The notes beneath the pieces were generated by a model. That model was given only the letters and a program-made list of their open reading frames with translations, made no database searches and was not told the DNA's origin. This document shows, piece after piece, positions 40,663-55,223 of a stretch of DNA of 64,000 nucleotides. The DNA lies in contig NZ_KB905370.1 of assembly GCF_000378985.1 (NCBI RefSeq), positions 3,679,342 through 3,743,341 on the forward strand, in the 5' to 3' direction. The DNA comes from Ensifer sp. BR816. GTDB taxonomy: Bacteria > Pseudomonadota > Alphaproteobacteria > Rhizobiales > Rhizobiaceae. Both the position numbers and the translations under genes were made by a program. The number at the start of each line of letters is the position of its first letter. Position 1 is the first letter of the stretch.

Positions 40663-41853
40663 TCAGGGGGTCTTCATCACGGCCCCCTCGATGACGACGC
40701 CGGCATTGACGTATTTCCACAGCGCGACGAGCAGCTTGCGGGCGAGCGCCACGATCGTCTTCTTCTTCAGACGACCATCGTTCTGCTTCCCCCGCTGCTT
40801 GAACCACAGGCTGAGCGCTGAGTGCGGCTGATGGCGCAACCACAGCCAGGCCACCTGGATCAGCGTCGTTCGCAGCCTTGGATTGCCTGCTTTCGATACC
40901 CCCTGGTCGTGATCGACCGAGCCGCTCTGCCAGGGTGTCGGTGCAAGGCCGGCATAGGCTGCAACCTGTCGTCGGTTGTCAAAATGACGCGACAGCCCCT
41001 CCGACCACAAGACAACGGCAAACTCCGGCCCGATGCCTTTCAAGGCGAGCAGCATCGCCGGTGCCGGCTGCTCACAATCAGCGAAATGCGCAGAGTCGAC
41101 CGGAGCGGCAGCGAGCATGGCGTCGCGCTCGGCCTCGACTGCCTTCATCTGTCCGATCAGCAGCTCCAGCCGATCGAGTTCGCGGCCGACCTGCGCCTTC
41201 AGATGCGTCGGCAATGGTCGGCCATCGCCGGTCCTCAACTCCTCGAGCCGCGTGCGCCGGTCGCGGCGCAGGGGCTGGTAGCCGGAGACGCCCTGGCTGA
41301 ACAGCAGGCCCTTGATGCGATTGACGTGGCGTACGCGCTCGTTCGTCAACGCTTTGCGCTCACGCGAGATGCGGCGACGGTCCTCCTCCTCGGGCGTCGG
41401 CACCCGCAGCATCGCACAGACGCGCGGCTCGCCCCTTTTATAGGCGAGCAGCGCGCGCACCAGCGTCTCACCGTCGATCTTGTCGGTCTTGGCCCGCCGC
41501 CGCCGGCGCGAGGTCGCAATCGAGGCCGGATCGGCGACGTGGCTTTCGATCCCCTCGGCCTGCAGCACCCGGTGGATCCAGAAGCCGTCGAGCCCGGCCT
41601 CCTGGATCACGATGGTGGGAAAGTAGCGCCCCGTCCGTGCCTGCGCCTTCCTCTTGAGCTCGGCAAACCGCGCCAGCAGGCCGGCGATGTCGTCGGCCGC
41701 CACCGCATGTTTCGACATCTTCTCGCCGCCGCCCGGCGACAGCGAGGTGATTAGCCATTTCGAACGGCTGAGTTCCAAGGAGACGAAGATTGCGCCAAGA
41801 TCCATGCGGATAGCGGTCGTCGGCGCTTCAGGTCGTTCATTCGCAGCGTGCAT
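40663..41853 (-). CDS. IS110-family transposase (second element)
   Basis: A 396-residue IS110-family transposase. It starts with FVSLELSRSKWLITSLSPGG (the first acidic residue lies in a divergent N-terminus) and contains the TDKIDGETLVRALLAYKRGE segment with the later acidic residues. The C-terminal half has LLALKGIGPEFAVVLWSEGL and AAYAGLAPTPWQSGSVDHDQ with the conserved serine region. A GGAGAG ribosome-binding site precedes ATG 41853. The gene is intact. It lies head to head with a truncated ISNCY transposase, only about 90 bases away, so the elements are nested or abutted. Confidence 0.9.
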   Translation of the reverse strand: MHAANERPEAPTTAIRMDLGAIFVSLELSRSKWLITSLSPGGGEKMSKHAVAADDIAGLLARFAELKRKAQARTGRYFPTIVIQEAGLDGFWIHRVLQAEGIESHVADPASIATSRRRRRAKTDKIDGETLVRALLAYKRGEPRVCAMLRVPTPEEEDRRRISRERKALTNERVRHVNRIKGLLFSQGVSGYQPLRRDRRTRLEELRTGDGRPLPTHLKAQVGRELDRLELLIGQMKAVEAERDAMLAAAPVDSAHFADCEQPAPAMLLALKGIGPEFAVVLWSEGLSRHFDNRRQVAAYAGLAPTPWQSGSVDHDQGVSKAGNPRLRTTLIQVAWLWLRHQPHSALSLWFKQRGKQNDGRLKKKTIVALARKLLVALWKYVNAGVVIEGAVMKTP

Positions 41854-41946
41854 GTTCGGCCTCTCCAGAGTAAGGTGTTGATTGAAAGCGACCTCACTTT
41901 GTCACAGCGCGGATCGCTATCCACCTCTTCTCATAGGATCTACCAG

Positions 41947-43047
41947 GAACTGGCCTTCCATCTCGAAGACTCCGCCTCGTTCCGGGCGTTTGCCCGGCTG
42001 CCGTGGGGCTGGAACCCGAAGAAGTCGGTCTTGCACAAGACGATCAGCGCGATCCGGGCGCAAACCTTTGAAGAGATCAACGGGGTGCTGCTGGCGAGCG
42101 CCCGGCAGGAGAAGCTGGAAAGTGGCAAGGTCGTGCGCGTGGACAGCACCGTCACCGCCGCACCGATACATGAACCGAGCGACAGCAGCCTGTTATGGGA
42201 CGCTGTCCGGGTGACGGTGCGGCTGTTGCAGCAGGCCGAGGCGCTGGGTAGCGCCATCCCATGGCACGACCATCGCCGCGCGGCAAAGAAGCGGGCTCGG
42301 GCGATCGAATATACCCGCGGCCGCCCCAAACGAATCAGGCACTATCGCGAACTGCTCAAGATCACGCGCACGACTTTGAGTTATCTGCAGCAGGCCAGTG
42401 AACAGGTCCCGCTGACGGCGGGCCCGGCCGGCGAACTGTGGCAGGCCCAACTCCGCCATTACCGGCCGCTGATCGAGCGGATCATCGCCCAGACCGAACA
42501 GCGGGTCCTGGTCGGGGAGCCGGTCCCTGCCGGCGAGAAGCTGGTGAGCCTGTTCGAGCCGCATGCCGACATCATCGTCAAGGGCAGCCGCGACGTCGAC
42601 TACGGCCACAAACTCAATCTGACCACCGGCAGAAGCGGACTGATCCTCGACCTCGTCATCGAAGCCGGCAACCCGACCGACAGCGAGCGCTTGCTGCCGA
42701 TGCTGGAACGCCACATCGCCTTTTACGGCGAGCCGCCGCGTCAGGCGGCGGCCGACGGCGGCTATGCCAGCCGCGAAAATCTGAGCGGAGCCAAAGCCCG
42801 CGGCATCCGCGACATGGCCTTCCACAAGAAGCGCGGCCTCAGCATCGAAGACATGGTCAGCAGCCGCTGGGTCTATCGCAAGCTGCGCAACTTCCGCGCC
42901 GGCATCGAGGCCGGCATCTCTTGCCTGAAACGCGCTTATGGCTTGGGGCGCTGCACCTGGCGTGGGCTCGACCACTTCAAGGCTTATGTCTGGTCCTCGG
43001 TGGTCGCTTACAATCTCGCCCTCTTCGCCCGCCTCAGGCCGACCTGA
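41947..43047 (+). pseudogene. ISNCY-family transposase, 5'-truncated
   Basis: A DDE transposase of the ISNCY type whose homology begins abruptly at ELAFHLEDSASFRAFARLPW; the usual N-terminal 70-80 residues are absent and the codons before 41947 encode unrelated sequence. The remaining 366 codons are open: VVRVDSTVTAAPIHEPSDSS (first Asp), AADGGYASRENL (second Asp) and the RNFRAGIEAGISCLKR segment (Glu). The truncation point lies next to the IS110 element, whose arrival or a linked deletion probably removed the start. About 200 bases after the stop, up to the kinase gene, have no gene and may hold the element's right end. Confidence 0.85.
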
Positions 43048-43255
43048 CGCTCCTGATCCGGTGGCGTTCAGAGCAAGGCCGGCGAGCGTCGGCCGATACC
43101 CCATGACCCATTGCCGCCAGATCGCTCTTCGGGCCACAACCTGCGCCGCCTTGTGCCATCACGCGTCCCAAGAAACGATGTCAGCCGGCAAACAACCTTG
43201 CAAAACCGCAGAAAAACAGGCGTTTATGGATGGGCACTAGTCTAGTAGAAGCGCT

Positions 43256-46228
<2,973 letters not shown>

Positions 46229-46263
46229 TAGATCCCTCCCATCCGGCGGGATGTGCAGGCTCC

Positions 46264-47913
46264 TTACGGGAATAGACCGCGCAGCAGCTTGGCTTCGGTC
46301 ACGCGGGTGATCCCTTCGATCAAGGCAGCCGTGCGCAGATCAACCTGGTCATCTTCCGCACGGCGGCGCGTCCGCACGAACGCATCCAGCAAGATCGCCT
46401 TGAGCCGGTGATTGATCTCGTCGAGCGTCCAGGTCAGGTTCTGCAGCCCCTGCACCCACTCGAAATAGGAAACGGTCACTCCGCCGGCATTGCCGAGAAT
46501 GTCGGGGATGATGTGCACTCCACGCTCGTTGAGGATCTCGTCAGCCTCAAGCGTGGTGGGACCATTGGCGCCTTCGGCGAGCAACCGGCACTTGATCCGC
46601 TCAGCGTTCTCGGCGGTTACCTGATTTTGCAGTGCCGCCAGAACCAGGACATCACATTCGAGTTCGAGAAGCTCGGCGTTCGAGATAGACTCCGCATCCG
46701 GAAAGCCCGCCAGCACGCGATTTTTGGCCACATATTCTAAAAGCATGTCCACTGACAGGCCGGCGGGGTTGTAGAGCCCGGTCGAGACGTCGCTGATCGC
46801 GATAATCTTGACGCCTGCCTCGGCCAGAAACCGCGCCGCGAAGCTGCCGACATTGCCGAATCCCTGCACCACGGCGGTCGATTTGGCGAGATCCAGCCCG
46901 ATTGCTTCCGCCGCGGCTTCGATGACATAGACCAGGCCGCGCCCGGTCGCCTCTTTGCGTCCAAGCGAGCCCCCGAGCACCACCGGTTTGCCGGTGACCA
47001 CCGCCGGAACCGCATGGCCGACCTGCTGGCTATAGGTGTCCATCACCCAGGCCATGACCTGCTCGTCGGTCCCCATGTCGGGCGCCGGGATGTCCTTGTC
47101 GGGTCCGATGATGTCGATGATTTCGGCCGTGTAGCGCCGGGTCAGCCGCTGCAGTTCGCTTTTCGAAAGGACGGTGGGGTCTACGCGCACACCGCCCTTG
47201 GCGCCGCCAAAAGGTAACCGCATCAAGGCGCATTTCCAGGTCATCAACGTTGCCAGCGCGGCCACATCGCCAAGATCGACGTCCTCGTGATAACGAATTC
47301 CGCCTTTGGTCGGCCCCATGGTCAGGACATGCTGCACCCGGTAACCGAACACGGTTTCGACCTGCGCACGGTCGTCGCGGAAGAATGGGAACGACACAAC
47401 CTGGGTGCGCTGCGGGAACAGCAGCCGTTGGCGGATGTTGTCATCCAGATTCATGATCTGGGCGGCCTTTAGGAACTGTTGCTGGGCCAGGCGGAACATC
47501 GGCGAGTCCCACTCACCACCATGGGCGCGCTTGCGCGCCAGTGTGTAGCGGATTGCCCTGTCGAGCGCGATGCCGTTGAGCCTGGTCTTCAGCAGAAAGT
47601 CGCTGGCACCTGCCTCGACTGCGTGTGCCGCGAGCTTCACATCGTCGAGGCCGGTCAGGATCACCACCGGGACATACGGCGCAGCCGATCGGATTCTGAA
47701 CAGCGTCTCCAGCTCCTGGCTATCGGGCAGAATCAGATCGAGCAGCACCAGATCAGTCGCGCCCCGCTCAAGCTCTCCAAGCCCGTCGGCCAGGCGATCC
47801 ACGGCCACCACCTCGCAGCGCAACTGCATTTCGGTGTCGAGCAGCCTTTGGATCAGCTTTGCGTGGAGCGGGTTATCCTCGACAAGCAGTACGCGCACTG
47901 TTTGATCGCTCAT
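46264..47913 (-). CDS. Response-regulator receiver fused to a Glu/Leu/Phe/Val dehydrogenase
   Basis: A 549-residue fusion. Residues 1-125 form a complete receiver domain: acidic pair Glu12-Asp13, phosphoacceptor Asp59 (LVLLDLILPD), Thr87 (VVILTG) and Lys109 (FLLKT). Residues about 140-549 form a full-length glutamate-type dehydrogenase: GPTKGGIRYHE, MTWKCALMRLPFGGAKGGV with the catalytic Lys239, PAPDMGTDE with Asp279, the dinucleotide motif VVQGFGNVGSFAA (349-361), and VSYFEWVQGLQN near the end. It catalyses oxidative deamination of glutamate or a related amino acid, and phosphorylation of the receiver would be expected to alter activity or assembly. It is followed after 35 bases by a hybrid kinase with an HPt domain. 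There is no reason to suspect a chimeric assembly, as the frame is continuous. Confidence 0.93.
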   Translation of the reverse strand: MSDQTVRVLLVEDNPLHAKLIQRLLDTEMQLRCEVVAVDRLADGLGELERGATDLVLLDLILPDSQELETLFRIRSAAPYVPVVILTGLDDVKLAAHAVEAGASDFLLKTRLNGIALDRAIRYTLARKRAHGGEWDSPMFRLAQQQFLKAAQIMNLDDNIRQRLLFPQRTQVVSFPFFRDDRAQVETVFGYRVQHVLTMGPTKGGIRYHEDVDLGDVAALATLMTWKCALMRLPFGGAKGGVRVDPTVLSKSELQRLTRRYTAEIIDIIGPDKDIPAPDMGTDEQVMAWVMDTYSQQVGHAVPAVVTGKPVVLGGSLGRKEATGRGLVYVIEAAAEAIGLDLAKSTAVVQGFGNVGSFAARFLAEAGVKIIAISDVSTGLYNPAGLSVDMLLEYVAKNRVLAGFPDAESISNAELLELECDVLVLAALQNQVTAENAERIKCRLLAEGANGPTTLEADEILNERGVHIIPDILGNAGGVTVSYFEWVQGLQNLTWTLDEINHRLKAILLDAFVRTRRRAEDDQVDLRTAALIEGITRVTEAKLLRGLFP

Positions 47914-48608
47914 GCTTTGCCTCCTTCCGGACGGCCGCCCCGCGAGTATATCAGGTTTGTCGTGGCTGCAGAATCTTGACTATCGGGGGAGCGTGTCACA
48001 CCAGCCGTTGGCGTGGTGGCATCATATCGTCGCAGCGCAACGACGCCCTAGTTCCCGTTCATACATATGAGATCTCGAATCAGAGAACACGTTCGCGATT
48101 ACCCGCGAGGCTCCGGAGTAACGGCTCGACCCTACGCTCCCGCTCATAGCGACGACGATGTCCGGTGCTGGCGAGCAATCTTGCCCTTCGGCGCTGTTGC
48201 TGCGAATTTCGGGATCCCACCCTACTGCGACGCGGTCAGAACCGGCATGATCGACCCTTTGCGGACCTCGCTAGCATTCAGTCAGAACGGCCGGTCCCCG
48301 AAACGGAAACGGTTATCGACCGCGGCCCGCGCATTCGCGGACATTTGCGCCCGCGCTTTACTTTGGTTCTCGCCGCGACAGGCGAAGATTTCCGGGAACT
48401 GTCGCATTCTGACCGAGGCTGCGCGCGGCGTGATCGAACGAGCACGGAATGCGGCCGAAGCCCGTCTCGACCGAACCGACCGGATCCCAGGGCCGCAGGC
48501 GACGTTTCCAGGCGGAGCCGTCTTCGCCTTGGCCACGAACGTCAGTTTGGTGGCAGCCCGCGATCGAACCGGCGCCGAAGCCTGCCCGCAGGCCCGCAAA
48601 ACCGACAG
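47914..48608. other. Gap without a recognised gene
   Basis: About 695 bases between the REC-dehydrogenase start and the end of the DmeR gene. Long frames exist on both strands because the DNA is GC-rich (for example plus strand 48067-48621), but none has a family motif, and their composition is Arg/Ala-rich as in shadows. The promoter of the dehydrogenase/kinase operon should lie near 47914-48100. Confidence 0.35.
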
Positions 48609-48884
48609 CTACTTTAGGTAGGCGCGCAGCACATCGATCAGTTCGGCAGCGCCCTCGTCGCGTTCCTTCTGGGACAGCCCCTCGGCGGCGACGTGCATCA
48701 GGACATGGTCCTCGATCACCTCGCCCATGAGGCCGTTGACCGCGCCACGCACCCCGGCGAGCACCTGCATGACTTCGGCGCAGTCTTTCTCGTCGACGAG
48801 CATCCGCTCGACAGCCTCCATCTGGCCGCGAATGCGGCGCACGCGATTGATCAGCTTTTGTTTTTCGCGGATGGTGTGGCTCAT
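48609..48884 (-). CDS. dmeR: RcnR/DmeR-type metal-sensing repressor
   Basis: A 91-residue all-helical repressor of the CsoR/RcnR/FrmR family. His3, Cys35, His60 and His64 are all present; this set is the cobalt/nickel site of RcnR, whereas formaldehyde-sensing FrmR lacks part of it. It therefore probably releases DNA when it binds Co(II) or Ni(II). It follows the DmeF efflux gene by 23 bases on the same strand. In described rhizobial dmeRF operons the regulator usually comes first, so the order here is reversed. A G-tract operator lies upstream of dmeF. Confidence 0.88.
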   Translation of the reverse strand: MSHTIREKQKLINRVRRIRGQMEAVERMLVDEKDCAEVMQVLAGVRGAVNGLMGEVIEDHVLMHVAAEGLSQKERDEGAAELIDVLRAYLK

Positions 48885-48907
48885 GTGCAGTTCCTTGTCG
48901 CCCGGGT

Positions 48908-49906
48908 TTAAGCCGCGCGAGCTTCAATCTCCACGGTCACATGCGACAAATCGTGAATAGCTGCAAGCTTTTCCCGATAATAGGAGGGCGCACGAGGCTT
49001 GTCCGTTACGATCGAAACGATGGCGCCGTGATGGCCCGGCCCGAGTTGCCATACGTGCAGGTCAACGATCTCCGCACCTTCGCGCGTGATGATCTCCTCG
49101 ATTTCGTCCGGCAGCTCCTCGCCTTCGGGAATGTAGTCGATCAGCACCGAGCCGGCATCGCGAATGAGCCCCCATGACCAGCGCGCGATGACCAAGCCGC
49201 CGACGATGCCCATGCCGGGGTCCAGCCAGGTCCAACCATAAAGGCTACCAAAGGCCAGCGCTGCGATCGCCAGTATTGACGTCAGTGCATCGGCCAGGAC
49301 ATGGAGATACGCTGCCCGAATGTTCTGGTCCTCGCCCGCACGGCCATGATGGGCGTGATGACCGTGATCGTGCCCGTGGTGATGATGATCGTCTTTCAGA
49401 AGCCATGCGCAAAGGAGATTGACAGCCAAACCCACAACAGCAACGAGAATCGCTTCATTGAAGTCGATGGCGACAGGACTTCTGAGACGCACGAGGCTTT
49501 CCCAGCCGATCAGCAGAGCAATCAGGGCGAGCACGACGGCGCTGGCAAAGCCGGCAAGGTCACCGAGCTTGCCGGTGCCAAAAGAAAAACGCCGGTTATG
49601 GGCGTGTTTGCGGGCATAGAGGTAGGCGAGCGCCGTAATGAGCAGGGCGGCGGCATGTGTCGACATGTGCCAACCATCGGCCACAAGCGCCATCGACCCA
49701 AACAGGTTTCCTGCGACGATCTCCACCACCATCATAGTGGCGGTGATGGCAATGACGAGCCAGGTCCGCCGCTCGTTGCGAGCGTGGCTGTCGCCGAGGA
49801 AAAGATGATCATGAGCCGCGTTGAGCGCCCGACTGGACTCGTGGCGATGTCCATGATCCTGGCTGTGAGGGTCGGAATGACCATGCAGGTTGTGGGATGG
49901 CATCAT
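48908..49906 (-). CDS. dmeF: Cation-diffusion-facilitator Co/Ni exporter DmeF
   Basis: A 332-residue CDF-family metal/proton antiporter. It has a His-rich cytoplasmic N-terminus (HGHSDPHSQDHGHRH), six membrane segments, LFGSMALVADGWHMSTHAAAL with the conserved metal-site Asp and His of helix 2, a His-rich loop KDDHHHHGHDHGHHAHH, and VLADALTSILAIAALAFG with the matching Asp of helix 5. The C-terminal cytoplasmic domain ends around VEIEARAA. The family DmeF exports Co(II) and Ni(II). Two adjacent ATG codons serve as possible starts, preceded by GGGAAC. It is paired with the DmeR-type repressor. Confidence 0.93.
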   Translation of the reverse strand: MMPSHNLHGHSDPHSQDHGHRHESSRALNAAHDHLFLGDSHARNERRTWLVIAITATMMVVEIVAGNLFGSMALVADGWHMSTHAAALLITALAYLYARKHAHNRRFSFGTGKLGDLAGFASAVVLALIALLIGWESLVRLRSPVAIDFNEAILVAVVGLAVNLLCAWLLKDDHHHHGHDHGHHAHHGRAGEDQNIRAAYLHVLADALTSILAIAALAFGSLYGWTWLDPGMGIVGGLVIARWSWGLIRDAGSVLIDYIPEGEELPDEIEEIITREGAEIVDLHVWQLGPGHHGAIVSIVTDKPRAPSYYREKLAAIHDLSHVTVEIEARAA

Positions 49907-49932
49907 GAAGTTCCCAAACTACTCGGAAAGTG

Positions 49933-49952
49933 ATATAGGGGGGTATACTATA
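49933..49952. promoter_or_regulatory. G-tract operator of the RcnR/DmeR type
   Basis: The sequence ATATAGGGGGGTATACTATA lies 27-46 bases upstream of dmeF. RcnR/FrmR-family repressors recognise a run of G bases flanked by AT-rich inverted segments, and this matches that pattern. The DmeR-type protein encoded downstream of dmeF is the expected binder. Confidence 0.75.
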
Positions 49953-50342
49953 ATGGGCGACAGAGGGCAACGCCTGTCTGCTGAATGCAAGCTTAGAATG
50001 CCCGTGACGAATGCCGTCCTCGGTGTGGGGTCAAGCCGCCGGCAAGGATGCTGCGGCAATTGCTCCCAGCTGGGCGGAAAGCGTACATAGAACAGTTGGC
50101 TCAGCAGCTCCCCGAGTGTCTGGGTCACGATCACGGTGGGGATGAACAACTGCGCAGGAGCATCGCCGACTACTGCTAGCCGGGGCCGAGAGGCAAGCGG
50201 ATTGGTTTGTTGCACGGGAGTGGGTTCAGGTTCAGCACCCTTCGCCACCAATCAGGTTTGACACGCGATTAGTAGAGGATTGGTCTTGAAATTGGTGTCA
50301 ATGTAGATCAATTTGGTTGCGGCAAATATTTGGCGAGGGCTC
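49953..50342. promoter_or_regulatory. Intergenic region between dmeF and the GntR gene
   Basis: About 390 bases. A minus-strand frame (50251 to 49919, containing RPRLAVVGDAPAQLFIPTVI) looks protein-like but runs across the dmeF operator and has no recognised family, so it may be a gene fragment. A 6-base dyad AAATTG/CAATTT (50289-50314) just upstream of the GntR gene is a candidate autoregulatory operator. Confidence 0.35.
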
Positions 50343-51011
50343 ATGAGCGTAGTCTTGAAGAATTTCATCGAGGCCGAAGGTCTGGAGCCGGGGGATCGGT
50401 TGCCGCCGGAGCGCGACCTGGCGGTCAAACTCGGGCTGCCCCGCACCGCACTGCGACGGATGCTTGCTTCTCTGGAAAAGGAGGGCCGGCTGATCAGGCA
50501 CGTGGGCAGGGGGACATTTATCGCCGGCAGCGGGGTTACCTCGACGGCGCTGCGCCGTCCGCCAGGCAGCACGGGAGACGCGTTGCGCACCTATCCGGCC
50601 GAAGTTTTCGAGGCTCGGCTGATCATGGAACCCAAGATCGCCGCCCTGGCGGCGTTACGGGCGACCAGGCAGGAGATCGACGAAATGCAGAAATCGATCG
50701 ATCGGGGCAGCGCGGCGGAAACCCTGGTCGAATTCGAGAAATGGGACGCTGTCTTTCACCGCATCATCGTCGGAGCCGCCCGCAATGGCCTTCTCGCCTC
50801 GCTCTACGAGGGGATTCACACGGTACGGGCGGGAAACCTCTGGGGGAAGATGAAGGAGCAGTCACTAACCCCTGACCGCATGAAGGCCTATATCGCCAAG
50901 CATCAGGCGATTCTGGACGCGATCAAAGATCGGGACAGCAGAGGGGCCGAGCTAAACATGCACGACCACATCGTCGAAGCGAGAACAAACATACTTGGCC
51001 CAAATACCTGA
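50343..51011 (+). CDS. GntR-family (FadR subfamily) transcriptional regulator
   Basis: A 222-residue regulator with an N-terminal winged helix (EPGDRLPPERDLAVKLGLPR then LRRMLASLEKEGRLIRHVGR) and a C-terminal all-helical FCD ligand-binding domain (EVFEARLIMEPKIAALAALR; the FHRIIVG segment carries a metal-ligand His). ATG 50343 has a GAGGG ribosome-binding site. FadR-type regulators sense organic acids, often sugar acids. No catabolic genes are next to it; decayed DNA follows, so its target genes may have been lost or lie elsewhere. Confidence 0.9.
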   Translation: MSVVLKNFIEAEGLEPGDRLPPERDLAVKLGLPRTALRRMLASLEKEGRLIRHVGRGTFIAGSGVTSTALRRPPGSTGDALRTYPAEVFEARLIMEPKIAALAALRATRQEIDEMQKSIDRGSAAETLVEFEKWDAVFHRIIVGAARNGLLASLYEGIHTVRAGNLWGKMKEQSLTPDRMKAYIAKHQAILDAIKDRDSRGAELNMHDHIVEARTNILGPNT

Positions 51012-51045
51012 GCATCTATTTGAGCGGTCTATTGAGAGCGTGTTG

Positions 51046-51215
51046 TCCGTCACGGTTGATGGCGATCGGTTCTCGTGCCTCGATGATGACCGCTCCGGCG
51101 AGACCGCGGCCGAGCTCGAGACAAGTGGCATGCGGGTGGTAGCATCCGGCGGAATGAACTCGTACAGGAAGCTCTCGCCGGGCCTGATCGGCGGCTGCAT
51201 CAGCCCCGGCACCCT
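51046..51215 (-). pseudogene. Multicopper oxidase fragment
   Basis: A frameshifted remnant of a multicopper oxidase N-terminal cupredoxin domain. One frame (51215 to 51141) gives VPGLMQPPIRPGESFLYEF, typical of the domain. After a frame change near 51144 another frame gives CYHPHATCLELGRGLAGAVI, matching the copper-ligand YHPH and the following region of the family. Everything else of the gene is missing. The intact oxidase at 56.8-58.3 kb is a different type, so this is not a simple local copy. Confidence 0.65.
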
Positions 51216-51240
51216 GGCGTGCGGAGGCTGAGGCCGTGGC

Positions 51241-52275
51241 ATGGCGCAGCCGCATAAGCCGGAACCATCCCATTATACCTCTCGGTTTCGGGTCGACAGG
51301 GTTCAGATGAAAAGGAGACAAGTGCACCATCTCTCTTTAATCTGCCGAACGGGAAGACTTCCTCCGTCTATTGACCCGAAATCTGCTTTTTCAGCGGCGA
51401 TCACCTCTCCCAAATTGGGCAACTGCGTCTTTAGACTGAGTTCCGGTTTGACACCATTCTGGGGGGATTGAGAGCGAGAGAGCGCCAGCCAAATTAGCTG
51501 TATAGCGGGCGAAAAACCAAATGATATGCCTTGTATCGCTTCAAATACCGCAGCCCACCGGTGGCGCCGGTGTTAGAATAGCAATCGTTGGATGGAGACT
51601 TCCGAAGCCGAGTGCATCACAGCCTTCCATCCTCCAAATTCCCCCTCGTGAAGCAGATTGGCTGCCGTCCAAGGGACGAGGGCAGCCACTTTTCTTTTTG
51701 GGCGTAACGGACGAGCGTCACTGTTCGACCACAGGAGTCCGTTAACCACTTTTTTCGAGCATGCCCGACTAAGCCATAAGACCACGTTATCTCTCGGTTC
51801 GGGTTTGCCCCTTTCGACATGGTCGTAACGGTCTTCGGGAACAATGATTGGCTGCGTCGGTTCGCCGAACTCAGGGGCCTCCGCAGCATTCCGCAGCAGC
51901 AGCTTGATGCCTCCGCCAAGGGGTCAAGGCGCTGGCGGCCGAACGGCATGACTCGCAAGGAGATCGATCGTGACGGCTGCATCTGGGCCGAGCCACTTGG
52001 ACTTGGGCTGCCCAATCGCAATTCGGCATCGGCGCGGGCTGACGGTCGCTTCGAACTTTTGAAATAGGCCCCGACCTGCAGCGGCCCTGGGCGCCGCGAA
52101 CCAAAACCTGGTGCGATGGCTATGCTCACCTGCGCCAAAGGTAGCGGCCAGCTTTCTCGGAACCATGGCGGAAACATCTTTCAGACGCCGCCGCTCCCTA
52201 GGCACGCCTCCGAGGCCCGTCGATGTCGGAGCCTCAGAGGTTTGCCTTAATCGCTGCCGAGCCTGCTCTCGTGGT
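51241..52275. other. Gap with decayed sequence, no recognised gene
   Basis: About 1 kb between the oxidase remnant and copZ. Frames up to 186 codons exist on the minus strand, but they show no motif and have shadow-like composition; a plus-strand frame from 51819 (MVVTVFGNNDWLRRFAELRG) may be a fragment. An imperfect stem CCTCCGAGGC/GCCTCAGAGG at 52206-52239 lies downstream of copZ and could end its transcript, although no U-run follows. Confidence 0.35.
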
Positions 52276-52524
52276 TCAGCCGATCGGCTGGGGCTCGTAT
52301 CCGGCTGTCCGAAGGGTCTCTGCGGCTTCGGCCGCGTCTCCCGCTACCGTGACCTCCCGAGAGGCCAGATCAATAGAGATCTCGGTCCCCGGCATGGTCG
52401 TCGCGAAGGCCTTGCGTATCGTACCCGCGCAATGGTCGCAGGTCATATCGGCTACCTTGAACCGGACCCCCGAAACGGCAGGTTCGCTAGCGCTGGAAGC
52501 ATGATGCTGATGTTCTCCGCACAT
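52276..52524 (-). CDS. copZ: CopZ-like copper chaperone (HMA domain)
   Basis: An 82-residue protein with a short His-rich N-terminus (CGEHQHHASS) and one heavy-metal-associated domain with the metal site MTCDHCAGTI. It should bind Cu(I) and hand it to CopA. ATG 52524 was chosen because the AGGAG ribosome-binding site lies 9 bases upstream; the earlier ATG at 52533 touches it directly. It is divergent from copA, with a CueR-type promoter on each side of the intergenic region. Confidence 0.85.
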   Translation of the reverse strand: MCGEHQHHASSASEPAVSGVRFKVADMTCDHCAGTIRKAFATTMPGTEISIDLASREVTVAGDAAEAAETLRTAGYEPQPIG

Positions 52525-52559
52525 GAATTTCATCTCCTGGTTATGATTGATGCACGCGC

Positions 52560-52590
52560 ATCCTGCCGTTTCCAACGGTTGGAAGGTCAA
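52560..52590 (-). promoter_or_regulatory. CueR-type promoter for copZ
   Basis: On the minus strand, a -35 box TTGACC (52590-52585) and a -10 box CAGGAT (52565-52560) are separated by 19 bases containing the dyad CTTCCAACCGTTGGAAAC. A 19-base spacer with a central dyad is the hallmark of MerR/CueR-activated promoters. Confidence 0.75.
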
Positions 52591-52639
52591 GTGCTTTTTT
52601 GCCCTTGTATGCGCACAAAATAAATTTGTCATAGGGGGC

Positions 52640-52670
52640 TTGACCTTCCGACCGTTGTAAACCTTACAAA
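52640..52670 (+). promoter_or_regulatory. CueR-type promoter for copA
   Basis: On the plus strand, TTGACC (52640-52645) and TACAAA (52665-52670) are separated by 19 bases that contain CTTCCGACCGTTGTAAACC, nearly the same core as the divergent copZ promoter. The CueR protein encoded three genes downstream should activate it when Cu(I) is bound. Confidence 0.75.
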
Positions 52671-52700
52671 CAGATGCAGTCGATTTTTCGGAGGAGCAAC

Positions 52701-55223
52701 ATGAGCCCGGCGACTGCTACAGATCCTGCTCTTCTCGGCATCTATGTCGAAGGAATGAGCTGCGCTTCCTGCGTCAGTCGAATCGAGAAGGCTATTCGAA
52801 CCGTACCTGGCGTGAAGTCCGCGGCCGTGAACCTGGCGACGGAGCGCGCCGATGTGGCGTTCGCAGGCCCGGCCGATTTGGGTGCCATTTTGAAGGCGGT
52901 TCAGAACGCCGGCTATTCCACGAAAACGGAAAGCGTAGAACTCGCAGTCGAGGGCGCTACGTGCGCCTCCTGCGTCAACCGCATTGAAGCATCGCTAAAA
53001 CGGGAGCCCGGTGTCCTCGACGCTACGATGAATCTTGCCACCGAGAGGGCATTCCTGCGCGTAGTCAGCGGGGCTGCCAGTATCCAAGACCTGATGGCGG
53101 CCGTCGAGCGGGCGGGTTACACCGCCCGGGCAGTCGCGGCCGAAAACCCTGAGGATGCACAGGCAGAGGCTCGCGAGCGCGAGGCGCGCAGTCTCGCGCT
53201 CGCCTTGAGCGTCTCGGCCGTGTTGACGCTTCCCGTCTTCGTGCTTGAAATGGGCTCGCATTTCGTGCCGGCGATCCATGACTTTGTCATGAACAATATC
53301 GGCATGCAGGAGAGCCGGTATCTGCAGTTCCTGCTGGCGACCCTTGTGCTCTTCGGACCGGGCCTCCGCTTCTTCCGCAAGGGCGTGCCCGCTCTCCTGC
53401 GCGGGGCCCCCGACATGAACAGCCTCGTGGCCCTCGGCACGGCTGCCGCATGGAGCTACTCCGTTGTCTCCACCTTCGCATCCTCGATCCTGCCCAATGG
53501 CACCGCCAATATCTATTACGAGGCTGCGGCGGTGATCGTGACCCTCATCCTGCTCGGCAGATATCTGGAAAATCGCGCCAAGGGCCGCACGTCGGAAGCG
53601 ATCAAGCGCCTTGTCGGTCTTCAGGCGAAGACTGCCAGAGTTGTGCGCGATGGCGAGACGGTCGAAGTCCCGCTCGATCAGGTGCAGATGGGAGACCTCA
53701 TTCTCGTGCGACCGGGCGACAAGGTGCCAGTTGATGGCGAGGTCGTGGACGGTTCCTCTTATGTCGACGAGTCCATGATCACTGGAGAGCCCGTGCCCGT
53801 TGCAAAAGGCTTGGGCGCGGGCGTGGTCGGCGGCACGATCAACAAGACAGGCGCCTTCACCTTCCGCGCCACCAAGGTCGGCGCCGATACCGTGCTCGCC
53901 CAGATCATCCGAATGGTTGAGCAGGCGCAGGGGGCAAAGCTGCCGATCCAGGCGCTGGTAGACAAGGTTACGGCATGGTTCGTGCCGGCGGTGATGCTCG
54001 CCGCCGCGATCACCTTCCTCATCTGGCTGTCCCTTGGTCCGACGCCGGCACTCAGCTTCGCGCTCGTTAATGCGGTGGCCGTGCTCATCATCGCCTGTCC
54101 GTGCGCCATGGGTCTTGCCACGCCAACCTCTATCATGGTCGGCATGGGCCGCGCGGCCGAAATGGGCATTCTCTTCCGCAAGGGCGAGGCGCTACAGACG
54201 CTTAAGGGCGCCGATGTGATCGCCATGGACAAGACAGGTACGCTCACAAAGGGCCGTCCGGAGCTCACGGATCTCATTCCCGCCGGGGGGTTCGACCGGG
54301 ACGAAGTGCTCGGACTGGTGGCTGCGGTCGAGACGCGGTCGGAGCACCCGATCGGAGAGGCCATTATCGCGGCGGCGAAGCGTGCGGGTCTTGTTCTGCC
54401 TGAAGTGGAAGGTTTCGACGCCATCCCCGGATTCGGCGCCAAGGCGCTCGTGGCGGGCCGCACGGTTCATGTCGGCGCTGACCGACTGATGACGAAGCTA
54501 GACCTCGATGTCACCGCGTTCGCAGGCGAAGTGAATCGGCTTGGAGATGAGGGCAAGAGCCCGCTGTTCGCGGCCGTCGACGGGAAGATTGCCGCGGTGA
54601 TCGCCGTATCGGACCCGATCAAGCAGACAACCGTCGAGGCAGTCAACGCGCTGCACAAGCTCGGGCTCAGGGTTGCGATGATCACCGGCGATAACCGAAA
54701 GACGGCCGAGGCGATCGCTCGCCGGCTGAAGATCGACGAGGTGGTGGCCGAGGTGCTTCCAGACGGAAAGGTCCAGGCGCTGGAAAACTTGCGCGCCGGG
54801 GACCGCAAGGTGGCGTTCGTGGGAGACGGCATCAACGATGCCCCTGCTTTGGCGGCCGCAGATGTGGGCATCGCTATCGGCACCGGGACTGACGTGGCCA
54901 TCGAAAGTGCCAACGTCGTGTTGATGTCTGGCGACCTGCGCGGGGTGCCGAATGCCATCGCCCTTTCGAAGGCGACGATCCGCAACATCAAGGAGAACCT
55001 GTTCTGGGCCTTCGCCTATAACACGGTACTAGTACCCGTTGCCGCCGGCGTGCTGTTCCCCGCCTATGGCCTGCTGCTCTCTCCCATGATCGCAGCCGGC
55101 GCCATGGCGCTGTCCAGTGTCTTCGTCTTGGGCAATGCGCTGCGGCTCAAGCGCTTCCGGGCTCCCATGAAATTCGATGCGGTGCAGGCTGACGTAAATG
55201 GCCGCCTGGCGGCAGCGCAATAG
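52701..55223 (+). CDS. copA: Copper-exporting P1B-type ATPase
   Basis: An 840-residue Cu(I)-exporting ATPase. Two N-terminal heavy-metal domains carry GMSCASC (Cys21/Cys24) and GATCASC (Cys88/Cys91). Eight membrane segments follow. The transport motif is Cys466-Pro-Cys468, the phosphorylated Asp510 lies in DKTGTLTKG, the SEHPIGEAI segment holds the nucleotide-binding HP motif, and [11 protein letters not shown] closes the P domain. ATG 52701 follows GGAGGAG by 4 bases; the earlier frame start is inside the promoter. It is first in an operon with a 2Fe-2S reductase, cueR and a multicopper oxidase, and moves Cu(I) out of the cytoplasm. Confidence 0.96.

Follow-up and report, generated by a model that had tools for sequence, protein, structure and literature searches.

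A gene that joins a two-component receiver domain (REC) to a full-length glutamate dehydrogenase (GDH) was recognized in a 64,000-nucleotide stretch of DNA from Ensifer sp. BR816, and the gene of a hybrid histidine kinase lies 35 bp after it. The whole stretch is designated as the window, and the fusion protein as REC-GDH. Judging from their sequences, the two genes are likely (with a probability of roughly two in three) to constitute a self-contained phosphorelay ending on an enzyme, in which phosphorylation would change the activity or the assembly of the GDH. Because the receiver is fused to the GDH and its own kinase is encoded beside it, the sensor probably controls the enzyme directly, not genes. 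Two-component systems are mostly regarded as switching transcription, second messengers, or motility. Here, what appears to be a complete phosphorelay, which occurs in several phyla, points at a main enzyme joining carbon and nitrogen metabolism.

The REC-GDH gene and its family

The REC-GDH gene occupies positions 46264..47913 on the minus strand and is open over 549 codons with no interruption; a Shine-Dalgarno sequence, AAGGAGG, stands ahead of its ATG. The 549-aa product is composed of a receiver (about residues 1–111), an extended helix (114–136), and the GDH (about 138–549). Pfam Response_reg (PF00072) matches residues 8–110 with the E-value 2e-18 (67 bits against a cut-off of 30.2), and this match and the residue conservation support the receiver with its extended helix (residues 1–132) at 47518..47913 on the minus strand. 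The GDH part (residues 134–549 and the stop codon; 46264..47514, minus strand) is full length by the matches to ELFV_dehydrog_N (PF02812; residues 167–295, E-value 1e-50, 171.2 bits) and ELFV_dehydrog (PF00208; residues 314–546, E-value 1.7e-76, 257.5 bits), both above their curated cut-offs. GdhB_Halo (NF041398; 477.1 against 620) and GdhA_Arch (NF040817; 473.6 against 750), which are among the nearest NCBIfam models, stay below theirs.

The receiver pocket is complete, with the acidic residues Glu12 and Asp13, the phospho-acceptor Asp59, Thr87, and Lys109. Lys239 and Asp279 are both present at the catalytic positions, with the roles of these and other GDH residues taken from the GDH literature. 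The first-pass annotation had claimed a receiver fused in one frame to a full-length GDH. The single 549-aa frame with three Pfam domains above their cut-offs bears this out, and all of the residues just named are at the positions claimed. The genome of the window also encodes a second ELFV dehydrogenase and one large Bac_GDH.

In a single-chain structure model of REC-GDH (pLDDT 89.3, pTM 0.83), the helix of residues 114–136 abuts that of residues 138–154; the extended alpha-5 helix of the receiver is predicted to continue, after a break of a single residue, as the first GDH helix. Structure search identified residues 135–549 as a GDH fold. The alignments in the 50 structure rows listed start at residues 131–140 of the window protein, and thus do not cover the receiver. 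Conservation along the extended helix is not significantly concentrated on one face (permutation p 0.39). The mean entropy of this helix is 1.23, compared with 1.08 for alpha-5 of the first kinase receiver (REC1) and 1.84 for the second (REC2), and the extended helix is on average no more conserved than the former.

Relatives were collected by a scan of genome contigs, in which the nearest named relative of the window protein is from S. fredii USDA 205 (96%). A family set of 82 loci, 57 with a receiver and 25 without, was formed from the best 80 of 494 relatives together with L009 and the copy in the window (L001). L009 is the same gene as L029, and the 57 REC-GDH loci include the window copy and count one gene twice. 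The combination of REC with ELFV_dehydrog, for which a domain search had been suggested in the first-pass annotation, is therefore present in at least 55 distinct genes besides that of the window, from at least five phyla, among the best 80 of 494 relatives. The phyla include Pseudomonadota, Planctomycetota, Gemmatimonadota, Latescibacterota, and Myxococcota. The two domains belong to one gene without a frameshift between them, since the same single frame recurs at 55–96% identity in other phyla and in many assemblies. A chance fusion, or a sequencing or assembly artefact with two genes read as one, is rejected by these 55 other genes, and its probability is negligible.

The pocket is strongly conserved. 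In the 56 other full-length REC-GDH loci (among which L009 and L029 are the same gene), Asp59 and Lys109 are each found in 56, Glu12 in 55, Asp13 in 54, and Thr or Ser at position 87 in 54. In the GDH part, Lys239 is retained in 81 and Asp279 in all of the 82 rows, consisting of the window, 56 REC-GDH, and 25 receiver-less proteins. Four comparisons of the window with Sinorhizobium/Ensifer copies, where L009 and L029 stand for the same gene, gave omega values of 0.07–0.12 for REC and 0.04–0.05 for GDH; the rows L063/L066 and L066/L086 were left out due to a shifted codon register. By these sequence-derived ratios, both domains are under purifying selection in Sinorhizobium/Ensifer.

The distribution is patchy. 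REC-GDH was found in 6 of 33 genomes of the genus, in 2 of 398 genomes of the phylum sample (the window's own included), and in 5 of 151 genomes of the family of G572. In the family, 2 of 199 genomes contain it at full length and 28 of 199 contain some match at the E-value 1e-100. REC-GDH is the sole ELFV match in four genomes: G586, G587, and G594 in a set of 17 genomes, and G753 in a set of 7, the two sets overlapping by at least one genome.

On a tree of 86 GDH domains, from which L071 and L100 (cut by contig ends) were omitted and to which six family GDHs were added as outgroups, the presence of the receiver needs three changes, and a single gain of the receiver with two losses would fit this number. 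Fifteen receiver-less GDHs of planctomycete, gammaproteobacterial, and other origin group beside REC-GDHs that mostly have no nearby kinase, though not with firm support (86/85).

The partner kinase and the two-gene unit

The partner hybrid histidine kinase of 990 aa is encoded at 43256..46228 on the minus strand, behind a Shine-Dalgarno-like GGGAGG. Its Pfam domain order is PAS_7, PAS_7, HisKA, HATPase_c, REC, REC, and Hpt. It qualifies as a tripartite hybrid kinase, having HisKA, HATPase, REC, and Hpt in order with their phospho-residues present. The C-terminal Hpt (residues 898–990 and the stop codon, with the PF01627 match at 898–979; 43256..43537, minus strand) is the presumed phospho-donor to Asp59.

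Of the 57 REC-GDH loci, 43 encode a hybrid kinase no more than 500 bp from the fusion gene, versus none of the 25 receiver-less GDH loci, 17 of which have at least 1500 bp of flank on both sides. One receiver-less locus has a kinase 5.3 kb away. In the 43 kinase-linked loci, the kinase is downstream on the same strand in 35, upstream on the same strand in 5, and convergent in 3. Convergent kinases are seen in the Nitrococcus-type loci L052, L056, and L059; no sensor domain was found by Pfam in the 733-aa kinase of L052. Clustering of neighbouring genes placed the kinase family beside 37 of 57 REC-GDH loci and the next family beside only 5, and no other conserved neighbour that would reveal a pathway was seen among the clusters listed. 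Further searching yielded four new loci, L124–L127 (L121–L123 being L035, L040, and L044), and the kinase is present in all four. In L127 (8513-11483), from an S. fredii strain, it is split into two overlapping frames, a 329-aa PAS part and a 695-aa HK-REC-REC-Hpt part, by either a real frameshift or a sequencing error. The 196-bp overlap of the kinase in L034, L044, and L091 probably results from taking the first start codon, and L060, L096, and L065 have a second kinase 4–7 kb off besides the adjacent one.

For 42 of the 43 kinase-linked loci, an Hpt domain was either observed or deduced. It is fused to the kinase in 34 loci, while in six (L057, L062, L065, L067, L068, and L069) the kinase has no Hpt and one is encoded next door, on the opposite strand in L057 and confirmed by Pfam in L067–L069. 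The window gene (L001) has its Hpt by Pfam, that of L009 is inferred because L009 is the same gene as L029, which has one, and the kinase of L046 ends with its contig. The best argument for a conserved phosphoryl flow from Hpt to REC-GDH is that Hpt persists even where it has a gene of its own. The phospho-residues are retained almost without exception: the H-box His in 40 of 40 kinases, the REC1 Asp in 39 of 40, the REC2 Asp in 40 of 40, and the phospho-acceptor His in every one of the 38 Hpt domains aligned.

Another receiver protein encoded nearby was considered as the true target of the kinase. Kinases aside, a further receiver gene lies within 6 kb in three of the 43 loci (L048, L060, and L067), a lower bound as some flanks are shorter (1.5 kb for L001 and L009), and this candidate was rejected for the flanks covered. 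The first-pass annotation had proposed that a sensor would act on the GDH without transcription. This proposal is strongly favored by the adjacent His-Asp-His phosphorelay kinase and its recurrence beside REC-GDH in other genomes, and by 40 of the 43 kinase-linked loci, in which, kinases aside, no other receiver gene was seen up to 6 kb away or in whatever shorter flank was available. Signals could also flow in reverse: the GDH would sense glutamate, 2-oxoglutarate, or NAD(P)H and control how long phosphate stays on the receiver, and the protein would thus tune the kinase as a metabolite-gated phosphate sink. No DNA-binding domain was found by Pfam in REC-GDH or the partner kinase, and the two proteins stay together over long distances, as such a sink would allow; however, the same 40 loci offer no other receiver in the flanks covered, and we consider this reverse flow quite improbable.

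The sensory part of the kinase is variable. The inputs across loci include PAS_7, PAS_3, GAF, CHASE, and a YfiR/HmsC-like domain, as well as HAMP with a TorS-like match below the cut-off. The different inputs imply that different signals probably feed one output.

Fourteen of the 57 REC-GDH loci have no kinase within 500 bp. Three of them (L064, L071, and L100) are cut by contig ends; in the 11 assessable loci, 10 planctomycete-type and one from Latescibacterota, no kinase lies within about 4–8 kb, and the receiver pocket is intact in 9 of the 11. Eight planctomycete-type loci with an intact pocket (L049, L051, L053, L058, L063, L066, L073, and L086) have no kinase within about 6.6–8 kb, and an orphan kinase may be encoded elsewhere in those genomes.

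Kinase and GDH distances are correlated (Spearman 0.79, Mantel p 0.001, 40 loci, with shared ancestry included in the correlation), and once GDH is taken into account, kinase and REC are correlated weakly (partial correlation 0.11); L009, L046, and L057, which are cut or odd, were omitted from the kinase distances. The Sinorhizobium kinases L028 and L029 are 0.61–0.63 identical to Ruegeria kinases, and the best paralogue of the window kinase in its own genome shows 38% identity.

The window was compared by blastn with five Sinorhizobium/Ensifer loci (L028, L029, L038, L126, and L127). In all five, the locally shared DNA corresponds to the two genes and 45–289 bp upstream. Its outer limits are 43241..48202 on the minus strand, consisting of 43241-48040 and, in L029 only, a 115-bp piece at 48088-48202. 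The match begins within 20 bp of the kinase stop codon and ends ahead of the REC-GDH start by 45 bp in L028 and L038, 66 bp in L126, 127 bp in L127, and 289 bp in L029, counting its further piece. No local match was detected beyond this stretch in flanks of about 3.5–8 kb. Elsewhere in the window, two additional pieces of L126 align about 40 kb away, and L028 aligns in short pieces near 19.5 kb. With a shared stretch between unlike flanks, the two genes behave as a cassette that occupies different sites, and the pair seemingly moved as a unit. The 5' region at 47914..47958 (minus strand) is a putative promoter region, including the extended -10-like TGATATACT as well as the Shine-Dalgarno sequence; TGATATACT is identical in all six Sinorhizobium/Ensifer copies shown.

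Two transposase genes (IS110-type and DDE type) border the unit in the window at 40663-43047, about 200 bp past the kinase end. On the other side, at 48609-55223, are genes for a metal-sensitive repressor, a cation efflux protein, an HMA protein, and a P-type ATPase; blastn found no match to these metal-handling genes in the available flanks of the five loci compared.

It is very improbable that the receiver is a passive relic, fused to a constitutive GDH without regulatory effect. The three changes on the GDH tree would also fit a working GDH from which REC was lost later, and some REC-GDHs have no nearby kinase, as a relic would predict. This reading is opposed by the invariance of Asp59 and Lys109 (56/56), the purifying selection on REC, the kinase and Hpt alongside, and the shared stretch of essentially these two genes.

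Natural variants and the proposed mechanism

One or the other domain appears to have decayed in a few loci. Invariant columns (33 in REC and 123 in GDH) were defined on the family including L072 and L076, without L057, L071, L088, and L100, and also without L095 for GDH. In the planctomycete loci L072 and L076, which belong to the 11 assessable loci lacking a nearby kinase, 13 and 10 of the 33 REC columns are lost, with the GDH intact (1 of 123 columns lost each). The opposite is seen in L124 (6866-8494) and L125 (6168-7796), from a pair of genomes that share a genus within the family holding Litchfieldella and Halomonas. Their receivers are near-perfect (1 of 33 columns lost) and the kinase is adjacent, but the GDH has lost 32 and 33 of 123 columns, among them Lys203, Lys227, Asp279, Ser482, and Asn354. 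Omega between L124 and L125 is 0.051 for REC, 0.137 for GDH, and 0.163 for the kinase, and by these low values the proteins look like retained pseudo-dehydrogenases. Both genomes also have a strong second GDH match. A dead-looking GDH kept with its receiver and kinase suggests that catalysis is dispensable in that lineage, and the GDH fold may also serve as a non-catalytic output. In L088 (4268-5917; Latescibacterota), the receiver pocket is intact and the GDH looks dead (Lys203Leu and Lys239Met); it has a very long branch, and there is no kinase on its contig.

These variants bear on the main rival to enzyme switching, in which the GDH is a scaffold or ligand platform: a ring would display several receivers, and the phosphorylated assembly would act on a protein partner or modulate the phosphorelay, with catalysis secondary or lost. 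L124 and L125, with REC, GDH, and kinase omegas all well below 1, and L088 fit such a platform. Nevertheless, Lys239 and Asp279 are nearly invariant in the main set (81/82 and 82/82), the GDH omega is very low in Sinorhizobium, and the dead branch amounts to two genomes of one genus beside one long-branched protein with no kinase on its contig. The scaffold is thus unlikely as the general explanation, though it deserves more weight than the reverse flow. Enzyme switching, as put forward in the first-pass annotation, cannot be the whole story everywhere, as the two halomonad genomes keep the receiver and the kinase without the catalytic residues of GDH.

Under the favored phosphorelay ending on the enzyme, the PAS-sensing hybrid kinase would autophosphorylate on the HisKA histidine, and the phosphoryl group would pass through the kinase receiver or receivers to the histidine of the C-terminal Hpt, and onward to Asp59 of REC-GDH. 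The phosphorylated state of the receiver would be relayed through the extended alpha-5 helix into the GDH, altering the activity or the assembly of the presumably hexameric dehydrogenase. The signal would then set the glutamate/2-oxoglutarate/ammonium flux without transcription. We infer the steps as far as Asp59 from the conserved pairing of the kinase with REC-GDH; the effect of phosphorylation on the GDH is the least certain step.

If true, this phosphorelay provides a direct and fast route from sensor to flux, a testable model of receiver control over an oligomeric enzyme, and a collection of exchangeable sensors that could readily be coupled to a metabolic enzyme. A broader reading is proposed tentatively, at somewhat less than even odds: the units may be a mobile class of two-gene phosphorelays with interchangeable sensors and one fixed output, a GDH ring with a receiver on every subunit, which is a kinase-switched enzyme and, in some lineages, a purely signalling pseudo-dehydrogenase. 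His-Asp signalling would in that case be aimed straight at the carbon–nitrogen branch point with no transcription step. The natural variants, a decayed receiver on a live-looking enzyme and a dead-looking enzyme with an intact receiver and kinase, allow the two functions to be separated experimentally.

Comparison with known systems

Response regulators with enzymatic outputs include CheB and the GGDEF/EAL/HD-GYP, adenylate cyclase, and PP2C types. REC-GDH resembles them in the N-terminal receiver with a full pocket, the C-terminal enzyme, and the partner kinase next door. However, their outputs modify signalling proteins or second messengers, whereas that of REC-GDH is an amino-acid dehydrogenase of central metabolism.

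The partner kinase shares the order HisKA-HATPase-REC...Hpt with the tripartite kinases BarA, ArcB, and TorS, and its best NCBIfam matches are BarA and TorS. It differs from them in having two receivers, in scoring below the cut-offs of those families (516.7 versus 890 bits for BarA NF008318), and in that the receiver protein encoded next to it is a metabolic enzyme.

The small GDHs with resolved structures, such as those of Thermotoga maritima (1b26), Arabidopsis (GDH1, 6yei), and B. subtilis (RocG/GudB, 3k92/3k8z), align to REC-GDH with the receiver outside the alignment. The hetero-hexameric GDH of Thermus thermophilus (3aoe) contains an inactive regulatory subunit and is a precedent for a non-catalytic regulator with the GDH fold. 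It is not known to have a receiver, and L124 and L125 represent a separate case.

The first-pass annotation regarded the architecture as a candidate for an undescribed system. The term holds for its function, as no functional study of a receiver-GDH protein was recognized in the literature searched, mostly by title and the start of the abstract; PMC12918730, PMC4426382, and PMC12421884 concern other systems, as far as their accessible parts indicate. It does not hold for the combination itself: a P2CS table from 2009 lists glutamate dehydrogenase (EC 1.4.1.3) as "Probable" in two-component proteins (PMC2716373), and thus the combination had already been noticed. The entry, in the accessible part of that article, is a single line without gene, kinase partner, conservation, mechanism, or function.

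Control of glutamate and 2-oxoglutarate metabolism by phospho-signalling is represented in Actinobacteria by PknG-GarA/OdhI, according to the accessible parts of PMC5448819 and PMC12321487. As proposed for REC-GDH, the signal acts there on metabolic enzymes and not on genes. In contrast to the Ser/Thr kinase and separate binding protein described in those parts, the REC-GDH unit would employ a His-Asp relay with the receiver built into the GDH, and neither protein of the unit contains a Ser/Thr kinase or FHA domain of the PknG-GarA type by Pfam. On the present sequence comparisons, the unit stands out as a probable His-Asp phosphorelay whose terminal receiver protein is a metabolic dehydrogenase, linked to its kinase, apparently mobile, and including a pseudoenzyme branch.
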